A stretch of 62,000 nucleotides of DNA from Pirellulales bacterium. Its GTDB lineage: Bacteria; Planctomycetota; Planctomycetia; Pirellulales; JAEUIK01. Each line of letters begins with the position of its first letter. Within the stretch, counting starts at the first letter, position 1. The DNA lies in contig JAIESQ010000058.1 of NCBI GenBank assembly GCA_019745975.1, positions 1-62,000 of the forward strand, in the 5' to 3' direction. Under the pieces are notes generated by a model. The model was not told the DNA's origin, did no database searches, and saw only the letters and a list, made by a program, of their open reading frames with translations. This document shows positions 11,111 to 48,654 of this stretch, in pieces. A program made the position numbers and the translations under genes.

Positions 11111-12565
11111 TCACTTCCCAAAAACGCGATCGCGCCGCGCCTTGTTAAAGGCCAGCTTCTCGGCGGTCGTCATCTTACTGAAATCGGGCTCGACTGGAGC
11201 GGCGTTTGACGTGGCTGCGGCAGGCGACACGTTCGATTTGCAGCCGCAACTACAGGCGTCGCCCGTCGCATTCGGCCTCGCAGAAGTCGCTGCAACAGGC
11301 TTGCCGTTGTAACCGCACGTTGACGTCGCCGGCTTGCTCGCCGCCGCCACCGCGGCGCTTCCCGTGCCCAGCGACGCTCGCGGCAGCACCAACCTGGCCG
11401 AACTGCTTGAACGCTGTGCGGTGGGTGCCGACGCGACCGAAGCCGGTACACTCGCCTGGGCACGCCCGCTGTAACTCATCACCGCGGTTTGCAGCACGCT
11501 GTCGTCGGCCAAGCTACGGACCGGTTTGATGTTCAGCTTAGCCAGCACGGCGTGATAGGCCGGCACAGCCTCCTCGGGCGTGATCGCCCCTTCGACGATC
11601 AAGCGCAGAAACTGCACGAACGCCAGCGGGCTTTCGGCCGAATTGATCTTCCGGCCGAACAGCGCCACGCGAGCGCCATGCTTCTGCGCCTCGGCGATCA
11701 GCTTGAAAGCGTCGTACGTGGTGCCGGCCGCCCCTCCCAAAATGCCGACGACCAGGTGCGGATCGTAGGCGACCAGATCTTCCATCGCGCGCGGGCCGTG
11801 ATAGACCACCTTAAGAAACAGCGGTCGGCCTGCTCCGGCCACGCCCGCCAAAGCCCGGGCGATGTTGTCGTTCACGAACGTGGGGACTTGCTCAGGCGAC
11901 AAGCCCTGCGGCGCATTGGGGTCGAACACCTCGAGAAAATGGCGGAAGCCTTTGCGCTCCGCTTCTTCGCGAAACACCCGGTACGCCGCGAGCGAGGCCT
12001 GGTCCTCATCCAGTCGGTTGTTGAACGTGACGCTGTACAGCCCCAGGTTCGCGCCGCGCGTCCGTTCCTCCGGCGCGCAGTCCACGTGGCCACACTGGGC
12101 ATGATCCAACAGCGACGTGCGGAACGGCCGCGACGCCTCGGCGGCATATGCCGCGCCCCGGGCGACCCAAATATCCGTCGTGTCATTGGCACGCACAGCC
12201 GGCGTGACGTGAGAATTGTCGAACAGCCGCTCGCCGAGCGCCAGCGCGTCGCTGGTGCTGGTCGACATCAGCATGATATCGACGATCCCCTGATGGACGA
12301 TGTCGCGAATCTGCTGGCGGTATTCCTCCAAACTGCGAAAGCGCCCTTCGCCGGCATGATGCTCGGGTGAACTGCCCGGCGCCGCCAGGCCGAACGCCAT
12401 GTCGGCGTCCTTTGCGTCGGCGATGATAAACTCGCGCGAGCCCGACGGATCGGCGTGAATGGCGGCCAGCTTCTGGTCGAGCGACTTGGCGACAGGTGCC
12501 ACCGCTGGCTTGCCCAGCAGTGTTCCGTTGGATCGCACACCTGAGATACGATCGGCGGCCGTCAT
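11111..12565 (-). CDS. Microcompartment-operon TIM-barrel-like protein, unknown function
   Basis: A 484-residue protein at the end of the microcompartment operon. Its ATG overlaps the stop of the dehydrogenase gene (ATGA at 12562-12565), so the two are translationally coupled. Residues about 40-350 alternate strands and helices like a TIM barrel: IVDIMLMSTSTSDALALGE, GANLGLYSVTFNN, FLEVFDPNAP, PLFLKVVYHG and VVGILGGAAGTTYDAF. This suggests an aldolase-like fold, but I cannot name the family. Residues 350-455 are a low-complexity Ala/Ser/Pro linker with a cysteine cluster (CGYNG, then CSCGC). The last 25 residues (DFSKMTTAEKLAFNKARRDR) look like a conserved tail. Residues about 14-23 (NGTLLGKPAV) are encoded by a dispersed palindromic repeat, so the N-terminus is partly repeat-derived. 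Confidence 0.7.
   Translation of the reverse strand: MTAADRISGVRSNGTLLGKPAVAPVAKSLDQKLAAIHADPSGSREFIIADAKDADMAFGLAAPGSSPEHHAGEGRFRSLEEYRQQIRDIVHQGIVDIMLMSTSTSDALALGERLFDNSHVTPAVRANDTTDIWVARGAAYAAEASRPFRTSLLDHAQCGHVDCAPEERTRGANLGLYSVTFNNRLDEDQASLAAYRVFREEAERKGFRHFLEVFDPNAPQGLSPEQVPTFVNDNIARALAGVAGAGRPLFLKVVYHGPRAMEDLVAYDPHLVVGILGGAAGTTYDAFKLIAEAQKHGARVALFGRKINSAESPLAFVQFLRLIVEGAITPEEAVPAYHAVLAKLNIKPVRSLADDSVLQTAVMSYSGRAQASVPASVASAPTAQRSSSSARLVLPRASLGTGSAAVAAASKPATSTCGYNGKPVAATSARPNATGDACSCGCKSNVSPAAATSNAAPVEPDFSKMTTAEKLAFNKARRDRVFGK
12495..12522 (+). repeat. GGTGCCACTGCTGGCTTG-type palindrome inside a coding sequence
   Basis: A copy of the dispersed hairpin that also occurs at 18958-18986, 45443-45471, 45487-45514 and 47971-47999. 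Here it lies inside the start of the TIM-barrel-like gene and reads in frame on the minus strand as part of LLGKPAVAP. Confidence 0.8.
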
Positions 12566-18957: not shown

Positions 18958-18986
18958 GGGTGCCACTGCTGGCTTGTCCAGCAGTG
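18958..18986 (+). repeat. GGTGCCACTGCTGGCTTG-type palindrome between ackA and BMC-H
   Basis: Copy of the dispersed hairpin with CACTGCTGG pairing with CCAGCAGTG across a 4-bp loop. It lies in the spacer between the first shell hexamer gene and the acetate kinase gene. Confidence 0.8.
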
Positions 18987-45155: not shown

Positions 45156-45601
45156 GGCGATCGGCGAGTCTCGGGCCGTCGCCTGATCTCGCGCGCTGAC
45201 TGTTTGCGCGAGCCATGCCGGGCGAATTGTCGCCCGTCGCCGTTGTGCGAGCGACCCGTTCTGGCTGATTCCGCTAGGATCGCGGCGCGGATACGCACGG
45301 GCAAAGCCCGTGGCACACGAGATTCAGCCCAACGGCATCACGACCAGTCGGTCGAATTGCTTGCAACTTCCGCGCGATCGGCGACACTCAGGGCAGGCAC
45401 AGCGACTAGAAGCAGTTCCAAAACCAGCATTGAACCGACGTCGGGTGCCACTGCTAGCTCGTCTAGCAGTGCTCGGTCGAGCTTATCACTGCTGGGCAAG
45501 CCAGCAGTGGCACCGAGAGTTTTGAAACTGCTTCTAGCGAGCCGACCCTTGAGTCGGCCCCTATTACAACCCTCGCCCAGCCCCCAGCGCAACGGACGGC
45601 G
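45156..45601. other. Spacer between SRP RNA and dnaX, filled with palindromic repeats
   Basis: No gene is supported. The region holds a CACGGGCAAAGCCCGTG hairpin (about 45297-45313), the nested inverted repeat at 45406-45537 and a GCCGACCCTTGAGTCGGC hairpin (about 45540-45557). Confidence 0.6.
45406..45537 (+). repeat. 132-bp nested inverted repeat (MITE-like)
   Basis: The outer arms CTAGAAGCAGTTCCAAAA (45406-45423) and TTTTGAAACTGCTTCTAG (45520-45537) match in inverted orientation at 17 of 18 bases. Inside are two copies of the GGTGCCACTGCTGG palindrome in opposite orientation (45443-45471 and 45487-45514). The whole can fold as a cruciform. It has no coding capacity. Confidence 0.75.
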
Positions 45602-47533
45602 ATGCCACTCGAATCTCGCGACCCGAACACCGAACCAGCGACCGACAGCGACCCGCCTGGAACCCCAGCAGAATACGTCGTCGTCGCGCGGCGCTATCGG
45701 CCGCAGTCGTTTACCGAACTGATCGGCCAGGAAACCGTCGGCCGGGCCCTGTCGAACGCCATCACCTCGAACCGCGTGGGGCATGCCTACCTGTTCACCG
45801 GCGCGCGCGGAGTCGGCAAGACCTCGACCGCGCGGATCCTCGCCAAGGCGCTCGATTGCGTGCGCGGGCCGACGCCCCAGCCGTGCAACGAGTGCGATAT
45901 TTGCCAGAGCATCAGCACCGGCGACGACATCGACGTGCTGGAGATCGACGGGGCGAGCAACCGTGGCATCGACGAAATCCGCGAGCTGCGGCAGAACGTG
46001 AACGTGCGGCCGAGCCGGGCGCGGTTCAAGATCTACATTATCGACGAAGTGCACATGCTCACGGCGCCGGCATTCAACGCGCTGTTAAAGACGCTGGAAG
46101 AACCGCCGGAACACGTCAAATTCATCTTCTGCACGACGGAGCCGGAGAAGATCCCGATCACGATTCTGTCGCGCTGCCAGCGGTTTGATTTCGCCGGCAT
46201 CGAGACCGACGCGATCGCCGCGCGGCTGGCACAGATCGCCGCGGCCGAAGGGGTGCAGGCTGAGCCCGAGTCGCTTGAGCTGTTGGCGCGCAAGGCCGCT
46301 GGCTCGATGCGCGACAGTCAGTCGCTTTTGGAACAGTTGCTGGCCTTCGGCGGCAAGACGCTGACGGCGGCCGACGTACACGCGCTGTTGGGGACCGCGG
46401 CCGGCGGTCGGCTCGCCGCGCTGGCCACGCAAATGGCAGCCGGCAACGCGGCTGGCGTGCTCGCAGAGTTCGATGCCGCGCTCCACGATGGGGTCGATCC
46501 AGGGCAATTGCTCAATCAACTGCTCGGTTTTTTTCGCGATGCGCTGGTGGCGGCCGTGGGCGGGCGCAGCGAGCAGCTTCTCTACAGCGGCCCGGCAGAG
46601 AAGCCGGCGGTGGCGGAAGTCTCGCAGCGGCTGGGGATCGAGTCGCTGCTGGCGGCGATGCAGATTATCGACCACGCGCTTGGCCGGATGCGCTATAGCT
46701 CGCAGGGGCGCACGCTGGCCGAGCTGGCGCTAGTGCGCATCGCGCGGCTGGAGAATCTGGCAGCGCTGGCCGACTTGCTGGAACAAGCGCGGCACGGCGA
46801 TCTGCCTGCGCTCGATGCGCAATTGCCGCAACCGGACGGCAGCGGCGCAAAAAAAAAGTCCGCTGAGCTGATCGGCGGCAGCGGTCACGATGATGGCGGC
46901 CAGCGCGTCTCGGCGGTTCCGCTGTCGGAGGTTGGCGAAGGCAATGGAAACGCGTCGCACGGCCGCGCGGCCGAGCGCGAGGCAATTCCTCAGCATTCCG
47001 CGTCGCTTGCGCCGTCGGCCTCGATCGCCTTGTCGTCGTCGGCTGTCCAGACTGACAAGCTGGCGACAGAGCCGGTTCTGGCCGCGCAAGTGTCCGCGGC
47101 AGCCGCGGAATTCGCTGGCTCACCCGACGAACTTTGGAAGCAAGTTTTGGCGCGTCTGCCGGATACGACGGCCGATTTTGCCAAACACGCGGGTGACGTA
47201 GCAATTTCCGCGCCAAAGCGCCTGGTCGCGACCTTTCCATCGCAGTATAGTTACTCCCGGTCGATGTGCGAGCGGCCTGACCGGTTCGGCCGGATTGTAG
47301 AAATCCTGGAAGAACTGGCCGGCCCGGGCTGGAAGCTCGAACTAGTTTTGGCGGCGGAAACTGCCGCCCCGCCGGTCACGCAGTCGCCAGCGCCGGAACG
47401 ACGGCAAGACCGGATTCGAGCCGCCGCCGAGCGGCCGCTGGTGCGGAGGGCCATGGAGCTGTTGAACGCCAGCCCGACGAGGATCGAAGAAGTGCCAGGC
47501 GTTGATCCGGGGTCACTGACCCCGGGCTACTGA
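45602..47533 (+). CDS. dnaX: DNA polymerase III subunits gamma and tau
   Basis: A 643-residue clamp-loader ATPase that loads the sliding clamp and couples polymerases at the fork. The AAA+ domain has the Walker A loop GARGVGKTS (67-75), zinc-binding cysteines 86, 95, 98 and 101, the Walker B IIDEVHML and the TTEPEKIPITILSRCQRFDF sensor block. Domain III runs to about residue 410. A flexible linker and a tau-type C-terminal domain follow. An A9 run at codons 416-419 could yield a product of about 421 residues. The last codons (VDPGSLTPGY) lie in a dispersed palindrome (47507-47530). It heads the dnaX-ebfC-recR cluster. Confidence 0.95.
   Translation: MPLESRDPNTEPATDSDPPGTPAEYVVVARRYRPQSFTELIGQETVGRALSNAITSNRVGHAYLFTGARGVGKTSTARILAKALDCVRGPTPQPCNECDICQSISTGDDIDVLEIDGASNRGIDEIRELRQNVNVRPSRARFKIYIIDEVHMLTAPAFNALLKTLEEPPEHVKFIFCTTEPEKIPITILSRCQRFDFAGIETDAIAARLAQIAAAEGVQAEPESLELLARKAAGSMRDSQSLLEQLLAFGGKTLTAADVHALLGTAAGGRLAALATQMAAGNAAGVLAEFDAALHDGVDPGQLLNQLLGFFRDALVAAVGGRSEQLLYSGPAEKPAVAEVSQRLGIESLLAAMQIIDHALGRMRYSSQGRTLAELALVRIARLENLAALADLLEQARHGDLPALDAQLPQPDGSGAKKKSAELIGGSGHDDGGQRVSAVPLSEVGEGNGNASHGRAAEREAIPQHSASLAPSASIALSSSAVQTDKLATEPVLAAQVSAAAAEFAGSPDELWKQVLARLPDTTADFAKHAGDVAISAPKRLVATFPSQYSYSRSMCERPDRFGRIVEILEELAGPGWKLELVLAAETAAPPVTQSPAPERRQDRIRAAAERPLVRRAMELLNASPTRIEEVPGVDPGSLTPGY
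46849..46857 (+). other. A9 slippery run inside dnaX
   Basis: Nine adenines encode part of Ala-Lys-Lys-Lys at codons 416-419. One extra A gives Val-Arg and a TGA after residue 421; one A less gives Ser-Pro-Leu-Ser and a TGA after residue 422. Both would produce a protein the size of the gamma subunit. A 6-bp stem (CCGCTG 46860-46865 with CAGCGG 46879-46884) lies just downstream. An A9 run is the known slippage site of Thermus thermophilus dnaX. Confidence 0.6.
47507..47530 (+). repeat. CCGGGGTCAC-type palindrome at the 3' end of dnaX
   Basis: CCGGGGTCACTGACCCCGG followed by GCTAC. Nearly the same sequence is at 48007-48029. It supplies the last residues of DnaX and abuts the TGA at 47531-47533. 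Confidence 0.75.
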
Positions 47534-47552: not shown

Positions 47553-47924
47553 GTGTTCAAGGGACTCGGCAATCTGGCCTCGATGGTCAAGCAGGCGCAG
47601 CAGATCGGCGCCCGGATGCAGGGCATGGCCGATGAGTTGCGAACGCGCCGGGCGACCGGGAGCGCCGGGGGCGGCCTGGTTGAATTCGAGGTGAACGGCG
47701 TCGGCGAAGTGCTGCGTTGCCGGTTCGATCCTAAGCTGTTCGAGCAACCCGACCGCGAGCTGCTCGAAGACCTGACGCTGGCGGCGGTGAACGACGCCTT
47801 GGCCAAATGTCGCCAGCTTCATGCCGAGGCGATGCAACAAGCCACTGGCGGCATCGAGCTGCCGGGACTGAACGACATGTTGGGCAAGCTGATGTCGGGC
47901 GACGACAAGCCCGAGGCCAGCTAA
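47553..47924 (+). CDS. ebfC: YbaB/EbfC nucleoid-associated protein
   Basis: A 123-residue member of the YbaB/EbfC family, small dimeric proteins that bind DNA with little sequence specificity. MFKGLGNLASMVKQAQQIGARM is the typical N-terminal helix, and VEFEVNGVGEVLRCRFDPKLF forms the central strands. The C-terminus ends with the usual LPGLNDMLGKLM helix and a short acidic tail. It starts with GTG 20 bp after the dnaX stop and precedes recR, the conserved order in many bacteria. Confidence 0.93.
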   Translation: MFKGLGNLASMVKQAQQIGARMQGMADELRTRRATGSAGGGLVEFEVNGVGEVLRCRFDPKLFEQPDRELLEDLTLAAVNDALAKCRQLHAEAMQQATGGIELPGLNDMLGKLMSGDDKPEAS

Positions 47925-47970: not shown

Positions 47971-47999
47971 CACTGCTGGGCAAGCCAGCAGTGGCACCC
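47971..47999 (-). repeat. GGTGCCACTGCTGGCTTG-type palindrome between ebfC and recR
   Basis: A copy of the dispersed hairpin in minus orientation (CACTGCTGGGCAAGCCAGCAGTG core). It sits directly beside a second repeat at 48007-48029, both within the spacer upstream of recR. Confidence 0.8.
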
Positions 48000-48006
48000 A
48001 AGTGTT

Positions 48007-48029
48007 CCGGGGTCACAGACCCCGGCTAC
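48007..48029 (+). repeat. CCGGGGTCAC-type palindrome upstream of recR
   Basis: CCGGGGTCACAGACCCCGG followed by CTAC, matching the copy at 47507-47530 except for one base in the loop and one flanking base. It ends 28 bp before the recR start. Confidence 0.7.
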
Positions 48030-48057: not shown

Positions 48058-48654
48058 GTGGCGGAGCTATCCGAATCGGTAACACGGCTGGTGGAACAGT
48101 TCGCCAAGTTGCCGGGGATCGGCAAGAAGTCGGCGGAGCGGCTGGCGTACCACGTCCTTCGCGTTGGCGAGGCCGAGGCGCTGGCGCTGGCGGACGCGAT
48201 TCGGCAGGTGAAGCAAAACGTTCGCCACTGCAAGAGCTGTTACAATTTGTCGGAGGCCGAAGAGTGCGGCATCTGCCGCGACGAGCGGCGCGATCGCACG
48301 CTATTGTGCGTTGTCGAGCAGCCGCGCGATTTGCTGGCGATCGAGCAGACCGGCTACCGCGGCTTGTATCACGTGCTCTTGGGGCGGATCGCGCCGCTCG
48401 ACGGCATCGGGCCCGATCAGTTGACGATCGAGCCCTTGGTGCGACGTATCCGCGAAGGGCAATTTCGCGAAGTGATCATGGGGACCAATCCGACGCTCGA
48501 GGGAGACGGCACGGCCCTGGCGATATCGCAGCGACTGGCCGAACTACCGGTGACGGTTACGCGGCTGGCGCGGGGGATCACCAGCGGCAGTGTGCTAGAG
48601 TTTGCTAATAAGGAAATCTTGTCCGACGCGCTGGCGGGACGGCAGAAGTTTTAG
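48058..48654 (+). CDS. recR: Recombination mediator protein RecR
   Basis: A 198-residue RecR protein that helps RecF/RecO load RecA at gaps. The N-terminal helix-hairpin-helix is KLPGIGKKSAERLAYHVL, the four-cysteine zinc site is CKSCYNLSEAEECGIC, and the Toprim domain begins with LLCVVEQPRDLLAIEQTG and continues through GTNPTLEGDGTA. The C-terminal ARGITSGSVLEFANKEIL segment is highly conserved. The GTG at 48058 gives the normal length. It closes the dnaX cluster and is 109 bp upstream of rpoN. Confidence 0.96.
   Translation: MAELSESVTRLVEQFAKLPGIGKKSAERLAYHVLRVGEAEALALADAIRQVKQNVRHCKSCYNLSEAEECGICRDERRDRTLLCVVEQPRDLLAIEQTGYRGLYHVLLGRIAPLDGIGPDQLTIEPLVRRIREGQFREVIMGTNPTLEGDGTALAISQRLAELPVTVTRLARGITSGSVLEFANKEILSDALAGRQKF

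Follow-up and report, generated by a model that had tools for sequence, protein, structure and literature searches.

The closest described system is the dnaX gene of Thermus thermophilus, in which transcriptional slippage takes place at a run of nine adenines, A9 (Larsen et al. 2000, as related in excerpts of PMC1088944 and PMC5009743). Antonov et al. (2013) reported 17 two-ORF dnaX genes with poly(A) runs, mostly of 10 As, for which programmed transcriptional realignment was inferred, and planctomycetes appear in the genome-count table of that paper (excerpts of PMC3711429). The importance of the gamma form to cells has long been debated, according to part of PMC5009743, and Baranov et al. 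(2005) pointed out that function is hard to predict comparatively when slippage yields a truncated product (excerpt of PMC1088944). No account of dnaX slippage in planctomycetes was found among the open-licence papers searched.

The window (the whole 62-kb stretch of planctomycete DNA that was analysed) contains a dnaX gene with a TIGR02397 (dnaX_nterm) match of 435 bits, the sole match above cut-off in the genome. The named relatives that it matches place the organism among the planctomycetes, with Pirellulales as the probable order. The gene and its surroundings comprise the following features.

45602–47533, + strand: dnaX, 643 codons, encoding a full-length tau-like product (ORF and TIGR02397; start codon inferred from the ORF)
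46361–46783, + strand: domain III of DnaX, PF12169, residues 254–394 (Pfam match)
46849–46857, + strand: A9 run, proposed slippage site, codons 416–419 (sequence and conservation)
46852–46858, + strand: A_AAA_AAG heptamer, in phase, inside the A9 run, candidate E. coli-type shift site (sequence)
46859–47530, + strand: tau-specific linker and C-terminal part, absent from the predicted short product (ORF, Pfam)
46864–46866, + strand: −1 frame stop codon TGA, reached with an additional A in the mRNA, 421-residue product (sequence)
46869–46871, + strand: +1 frame stop codon TGA, reached when the mRNA lacks one A, 422-residue product (sequence)
47553–47924, + strand: ORF adjoining dnaX, which we take to be YbaB-like from the dnaX-ybaB-recR gene order (ORF)
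48058–48654, + strand: ORF, presumably RecR-like by name (ORF)

The A9 run is read as GC A AAA AAA AAG TCC within the dnaX ORF. Past the run, translation in the −1 frame would add V R before a stop, and in the +1 frame P L S. The run in dnaX and the stop that closely follows a one-base slip in either direction are thus as given in the preliminary description. That description had also placed the run exactly at the border between domain III and the linker, which is slightly off: PF12169 ends at residue 394, and with its first A in codon 416 the run lies about 22 residues into the linker, in its early part. Further downstream, a weak match to PF12362, below the cut-off, covers residues 540–620.

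Repeated elements are present around the gene. The palindrome CACTGCTGGNNAAGCCAGCAGTG occurs in four copies with up to 2 mismatches (12500–12522, 18964–18986, 45487–45509 and 47971–47993), none being expected by shuffling, and two of the copies flank dnaX and its neighbour ORF. A second palindrome, CCGGGGTCNNNGACCCCGG, has copies at 47507–47525 and 48007–48025. As the former makes up the last dnaX codons, the C-terminus of DnaX may come from a repeat.

It is very probable, from the comparisons below, that the cell uses slippage at the A9 run to obtain a short second form of DnaX. RNA polymerase would slip on the A9 template and generate a mixed population of mRNAs. Transcripts with 9 (or 9+3n) As would yield the 643-residue tau-like DnaX, and those that had gained or lost one or two As would run into a stop within a few codons. 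The resulting product of 421–422 residues would be a gamma-like DnaX consisting of domains I–III without the C-terminal part. A stop in each frame would be needed only if slippage is bidirectional or inserts one or two bases, as in Thermus (part of PMC5009743). What the sequences show directly is the run with its two stops, which are conserved together whatever the reading phase, and no consistent signal of the Shine-Dalgarno or structural kind. From these features we infer slippage, its placement at transcription, the making and use of the short protein, and any ratio of the two forms. We hold with high confidence that recoding at the run is programmed, and consider it probable that RNA polymerase slippage is the mechanism that acts there to give a gamma-like DnaX.

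No other run of at least 8 As was found in the 62-kb window on either strand. By itself, an A9 run is not improbable over such a length, since 19 of 100 dinucleotide shuffles of the window held at least as many A8 matches. The dnaX genes of relatives were surveyed, as the preliminary description had suggested. In the order of the window genome, 146 genomes were searched; dnaX was above threshold in 138 (140 gene matches), and 137 genes from 135 genomes were retained, G001, G089 and G099 being left out as their matches or frames are apparently cut short. The remainder of the class was sampled with 52 of 89 matching genomes, hand-picked across genera except for 12 taken as best matches, and the rest of the phylum with 80 genes from 105 genomes with a match. 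The run site was defined as positions 395–475 in window numbering. Runs of at least 8 As occupy the site in 113 of the 137 order genes (75 A9, 36 A10, 1 A11, 1 A8), in 42 of the 52 other class genes (25 A9, 17 A10) and in 14 of the 80 genes from the rest of the phylum, where 10 are A9 or A10. With A9–A11 counted, the run is kept in 112 order genes and 42 remaining class genes, or 154 of 189 (100 A9, 53 A10, 1 A11). It lies 10–74 codons past position 394 (window numbering; median 28), beyond domains I–III, and elsewhere in the examined order and class dnaX coding sequences all A runs are shorter than 8. In the named locus set, the site holds A9 or A10 in 9 of the 11 planctomycete loci (L038–L048) and in 6 of the other 69 loci, which come from mixed phyla and are partly truncated. 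Two genomes, G035 (L024, L153) and G047 (L125, L171), contain two dnaX genes each, all four with A9 at the site, either as duplicates or through contamination.

The nucleotide run itself appears to be what is kept, not merely lysines, because redrawing synonymous codons with the amino acids and the codon usage of each gene held produced 11.7 runs on expectation against 154 observed. Elsewhere in these genes, the median share of AAA among lysine codons is 0.34. The peptides encoded at the run vary (AKKK, EKKT, VKKN, KKK, QKKT and others), and the run is read in phase 0, 1 or 2 in 14, 57 and 83 genes, respectively. On a FastTree gene tree of domains I–III, there are at least 23 changes of phase, 25 of presence or absence and 32 of length, the phase count being approximate as the tree is based on a single gene. 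Runs in phase 2 consist of 9 or 10 As with a single exception of 7, though 7 As would hold the −1 heptamer.

Near stops in both alternative frames accompany the run. They were examined in 149 run genes, five having been left out as truncated at a contig end or two-frame (open frames of at most 460 codons). Within 10 codons after the run, a stop is present in the −1 frame in 132 genes, in the +1 frame in 125 and in both in 111; one or both are missing in the other 38. At displaced positions of the same genes (n = 741), the corresponding proportions are 21, 24 and 6%. In the order, paired stops were found in 80 of 109 genes, compared with 6.4 when codons were shuffled (500 rounds, at most 14) and 10.8 when synonymous codons were redrawn (at most 19). 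In the rest of the class, there were 32 of 41, compared with 5.0 and 6.3, respectively. When one gene was drawn per family, paired stops were found on average in 19.9 of 24 genes, with 14 the lowest in 2000 draws. Of the 149 stretches of 30 nucleotides that follow the run, 148 are distinct, with a mean identity of 0.29, which indicates that the stops are renewed and not inherited text. The nearby out-of-frame stops of the preliminary description are thus kept in most relatives with the run, and its proposal that slippage makes a gamma-type product is supported by this comparison of sequences, as the run and both stops recur together in any phase. For the same reason, the Thermus mechanism fits better than that of E. 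coli.

Conservation of the run is not complete. A run of at least 9 As is absent from 25 of the 137 order genes, including that of G004, which belongs to the same family as the window genome. The preliminary description had named loss in close relatives as evidence against slippage, and such loss is partly seen; it involves the run and the stops together, as none of the 34 run-less class genes read at position 420 has paired stops (3 have the −1 stop and 3 the +1 stop). G004 lacks both the run and its stops, so the gamma form would not be universal. In the 24 order genes without a run of at least 8 As, no alternative A run was seen on reading the linkers, which are mostly rich in Pro and Ala. 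In the genomes that lack the run, the short form would be dispensable or made otherwise. As the run and stops are conserved jointly and lost jointly, selection would keep the short form in most of the class, with some members doing without it.

The main rival to polymerase slippage is that ribosomes slip, the tRNA-Lys sliding forwards or backwards along the poly(A) stretch of the mRNA to give the short protein. Lysine AAA repeats are known to make ribosomes slide. The phase independence, the stops in both frames and the absence of stimulators fit this reading equally well, and a run of nine or more As holds an in-phase A_AAA_AAA whatever the phase. The floor of 9 on run length regardless of phase favours the polymerase, although discrimination by sequence is weak on this point, and so does the A9 precedent of Thermus (excerpt of PMC1088944). 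Since sequence alone does not separate the two, polymerase slippage is held as probable, and ribosome sliding as unlikely but with an appreciable chance of being right.

The content of lysine tRNAs was considered in this connection. Two tRNA-Lys species in Thermus have been suggested as a reason for slippage by the polymerase rather than the ribosome (part of PMC5009743). The window genome has tRNA-Lys with UUU and CUU anticodons, as found by Rfam search and ARAGORN. By pattern search, however, a CUU-type tRNA-Lys was matched in 29 of 31 genomes with the run, 14 of 14 without it, and 27 of 30 genomes of family f27, a family of another class with heptamer-type dnaX (see below). Two tRNA-Lys species are thus not diagnostic, and tRNA-Lys content fails to separate slippage-type from heptamer-type genomes. 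The same genome carries a dense tRNA array, possibly on a mobile element, with more than 20 Rfam tRNA matches in 6 kb of one contig (G000:C135:5331–11008); ARAGORN found 13 tRNAs in locus L467 alone.

The A_AAA_AAG heptamer at 46852–46858 is required only by a second rival, −1 programmed ribosomal frameshifting of the E. coli type, which we regard as improbable. In the window, the in-phase heptamer is followed two codons on by the −1 stop, and a short hairpin can form directly downstream of the run. The folding there has z −0.37 over 48 nt and −1.32 over 101 nt, and across the clade the mean fold z is 0.14 and −0.09, downstream folding being average or weaker relative to upstream windows of the same genes, with no mean excess. 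An in-phase A_AAA_AAG is found in only 25 of the 154 run genes. Shine-Dalgarno-like words at −18 to −6 show no excess, with 9 of 113 in the order and 0 of 42 in the class against control levels of 7.9 and 9.2%; under a looser measure they were slightly more frequent than expected in the order (16 of 113, about 9.6 expected), with 4 of 42 in the class (about 4.5 expected). A tRNA-Lys with the CUU anticodon exists in this genome, which also speaks against such a shift, and the +1 stops, which have no role in −1 ribosomal shifting, would be left unexplained. The heptamer and Shine-Dalgarno tests thus do not support E. coli-type frameshifting as the mechanism of the clade.

A chance origin of the run in a lysine-rich linker, or its arising through an error of assembly, is very improbable. 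The linker does evolve fast, and the shuffling of the window leaves room for chance there, but chance lysines are rejected by the synonymous redraw, and the joint conservation of run and stops contradicts both chance and assembly error. The run is also present in single-contig assemblies (e.g. G010, G011, G087 and G104) and in the isolates Aporhodopirellula aestuarii and Gemmata sp. IIL30 (L043, L047). The least credible alternative, a DNA-level switch in which replication slippage sets the run length and thereby tau or the short form in each cell, draws on the variation between A9 and A10 among relatives and on three genes in which A10 makes the short form the templated one, but usual genes template tau whatever the run length, and a cell with tau off would presumably be very sick.

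A9 sites were also sought in the whole 6.98-Mb genome. Five were found against about 20 expected, a scarcity that is only suggestive as the expectation comes from a first-order Markov model fitted to one window. They are located in dnaX, in a polyketide-synthase-like gene, at a terminator-like position after a hairpin and, as judged by eye, between ORFs in two cases. The polyketide-synthase-like gene changes frame at its A9 (L149:1501–1509; G000:C132:14546–14554), with a carrier protein domain before it (PF00550, 21.1 bits, just above cut-off) and a KR domain after it (PF08659). A homologue in G006 (L402), 62% identical, has A10 (after base 1475) at the corresponding junction, where the frame changes in the same way. 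Among the matches listed, no frame break was found in the other relatives, which are 38–44% identical over most matches. This gene is a possible second case of programmed slippage. It points to A9 slippage being productive in the organism, but does not tell polymerase from ribosome.

Other arrangements of dnaX exist in the phylum. In f27, 61 genomes were searched, 58 had a match and the best 30 loci were read (L414–L443). All 30 encode a short zero-frame DnaX with an in-phase X_XXY_YYZ heptamer within the last 60 bases, the background for such heptamers being 12 in 9821 codon positions. Twenty-four are A_AAA_AAA, in A runs of exactly 7, and six are G_GGA_AAA; 28 of the 30 sit 0–1 codon before the zero-frame stop. 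The −1 frame is open for 74–240 codons past the heptamer, and a Shine-Dalgarno-like word is found in 19 of 30, compared with 8.2% in the control. We infer, from homology judged by eye, that the −1-frame tail is the tau tail, and the sequences look like a case of ribosomal frameshifting giving tau. In three other genes, one from the order (L211) and two from other classes (L376, L393), an A10 run is closely followed by a stop in the zero frame, and the −1 frame holds the tail, so that their templated product is predicted to be the short form. In family f33 (L370, L372, L386, L387), short dnaX genes that lack an A run are followed by what seems to be a tau tail, in the −1 frame. In family f59 (L394), the apparent tau tail of a short dnaX lies in the +1 frame and has its own ATG ten bases past the stop.

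Our overall picture, to which we lean somewhat rather than commit, is that one phylum would contain two machineries for gamma. The class would use polymerase slippage at A9–A10, in any phase and with both stops. In another family, ribosomes would shift at a heptamer in phase, either A7 or G_GGA_AAA, accompanied by a Shine-Dalgarno-like word, and the −1 frame would encode tau. The templated form would be swapped in a few genes with A10, and both coding A9 sites of the window genome, in dnaX and in the polyketide-synthase-like gene, would be recoding sites. With slippage-type and ribosome-type dnaX in one phylum, a switch between them can be studied among relatives. The paired-stop test also provides one way to predict function for truncated slippage products.

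A change of frame past domain III would give two forms of DnaX in the window clade as in f27; the in-phase heptamer, the Shine-Dalgarno-like word and a tau tail read in the −1 frame set f27 apart. In E. coli dnaX, too, a frame change after domain III gives a short product, and the window even holds the A_AAA_AAG, but its clade has no consistent Shine-Dalgarno word or stem-loop, reads the run in any phase and has stops in both frames. In the two-ORF genes of Antonov et al., as far as the excerpts of PMC3711429 describe them, the zero frame encodes gamma and slippage leads to tau; L211, L376 and L393 resemble these genes, whereas the zero frame of the window gene encodes tau. The window gene, in which slippage is predicted from the sequence, differs from that of Thermus in belonging to a different phylum, in being GC-rich and in having the run at codon 416 of 643. 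With Thermus dnaX, as described in part of the cited sources, it shares the sense-strand A9, a single ORF for tau, nearby stops in the two alternative frames and two tRNA-Lys species, and the dnaX slippage known in Thermus would here be of the same kind on the scale of a class.
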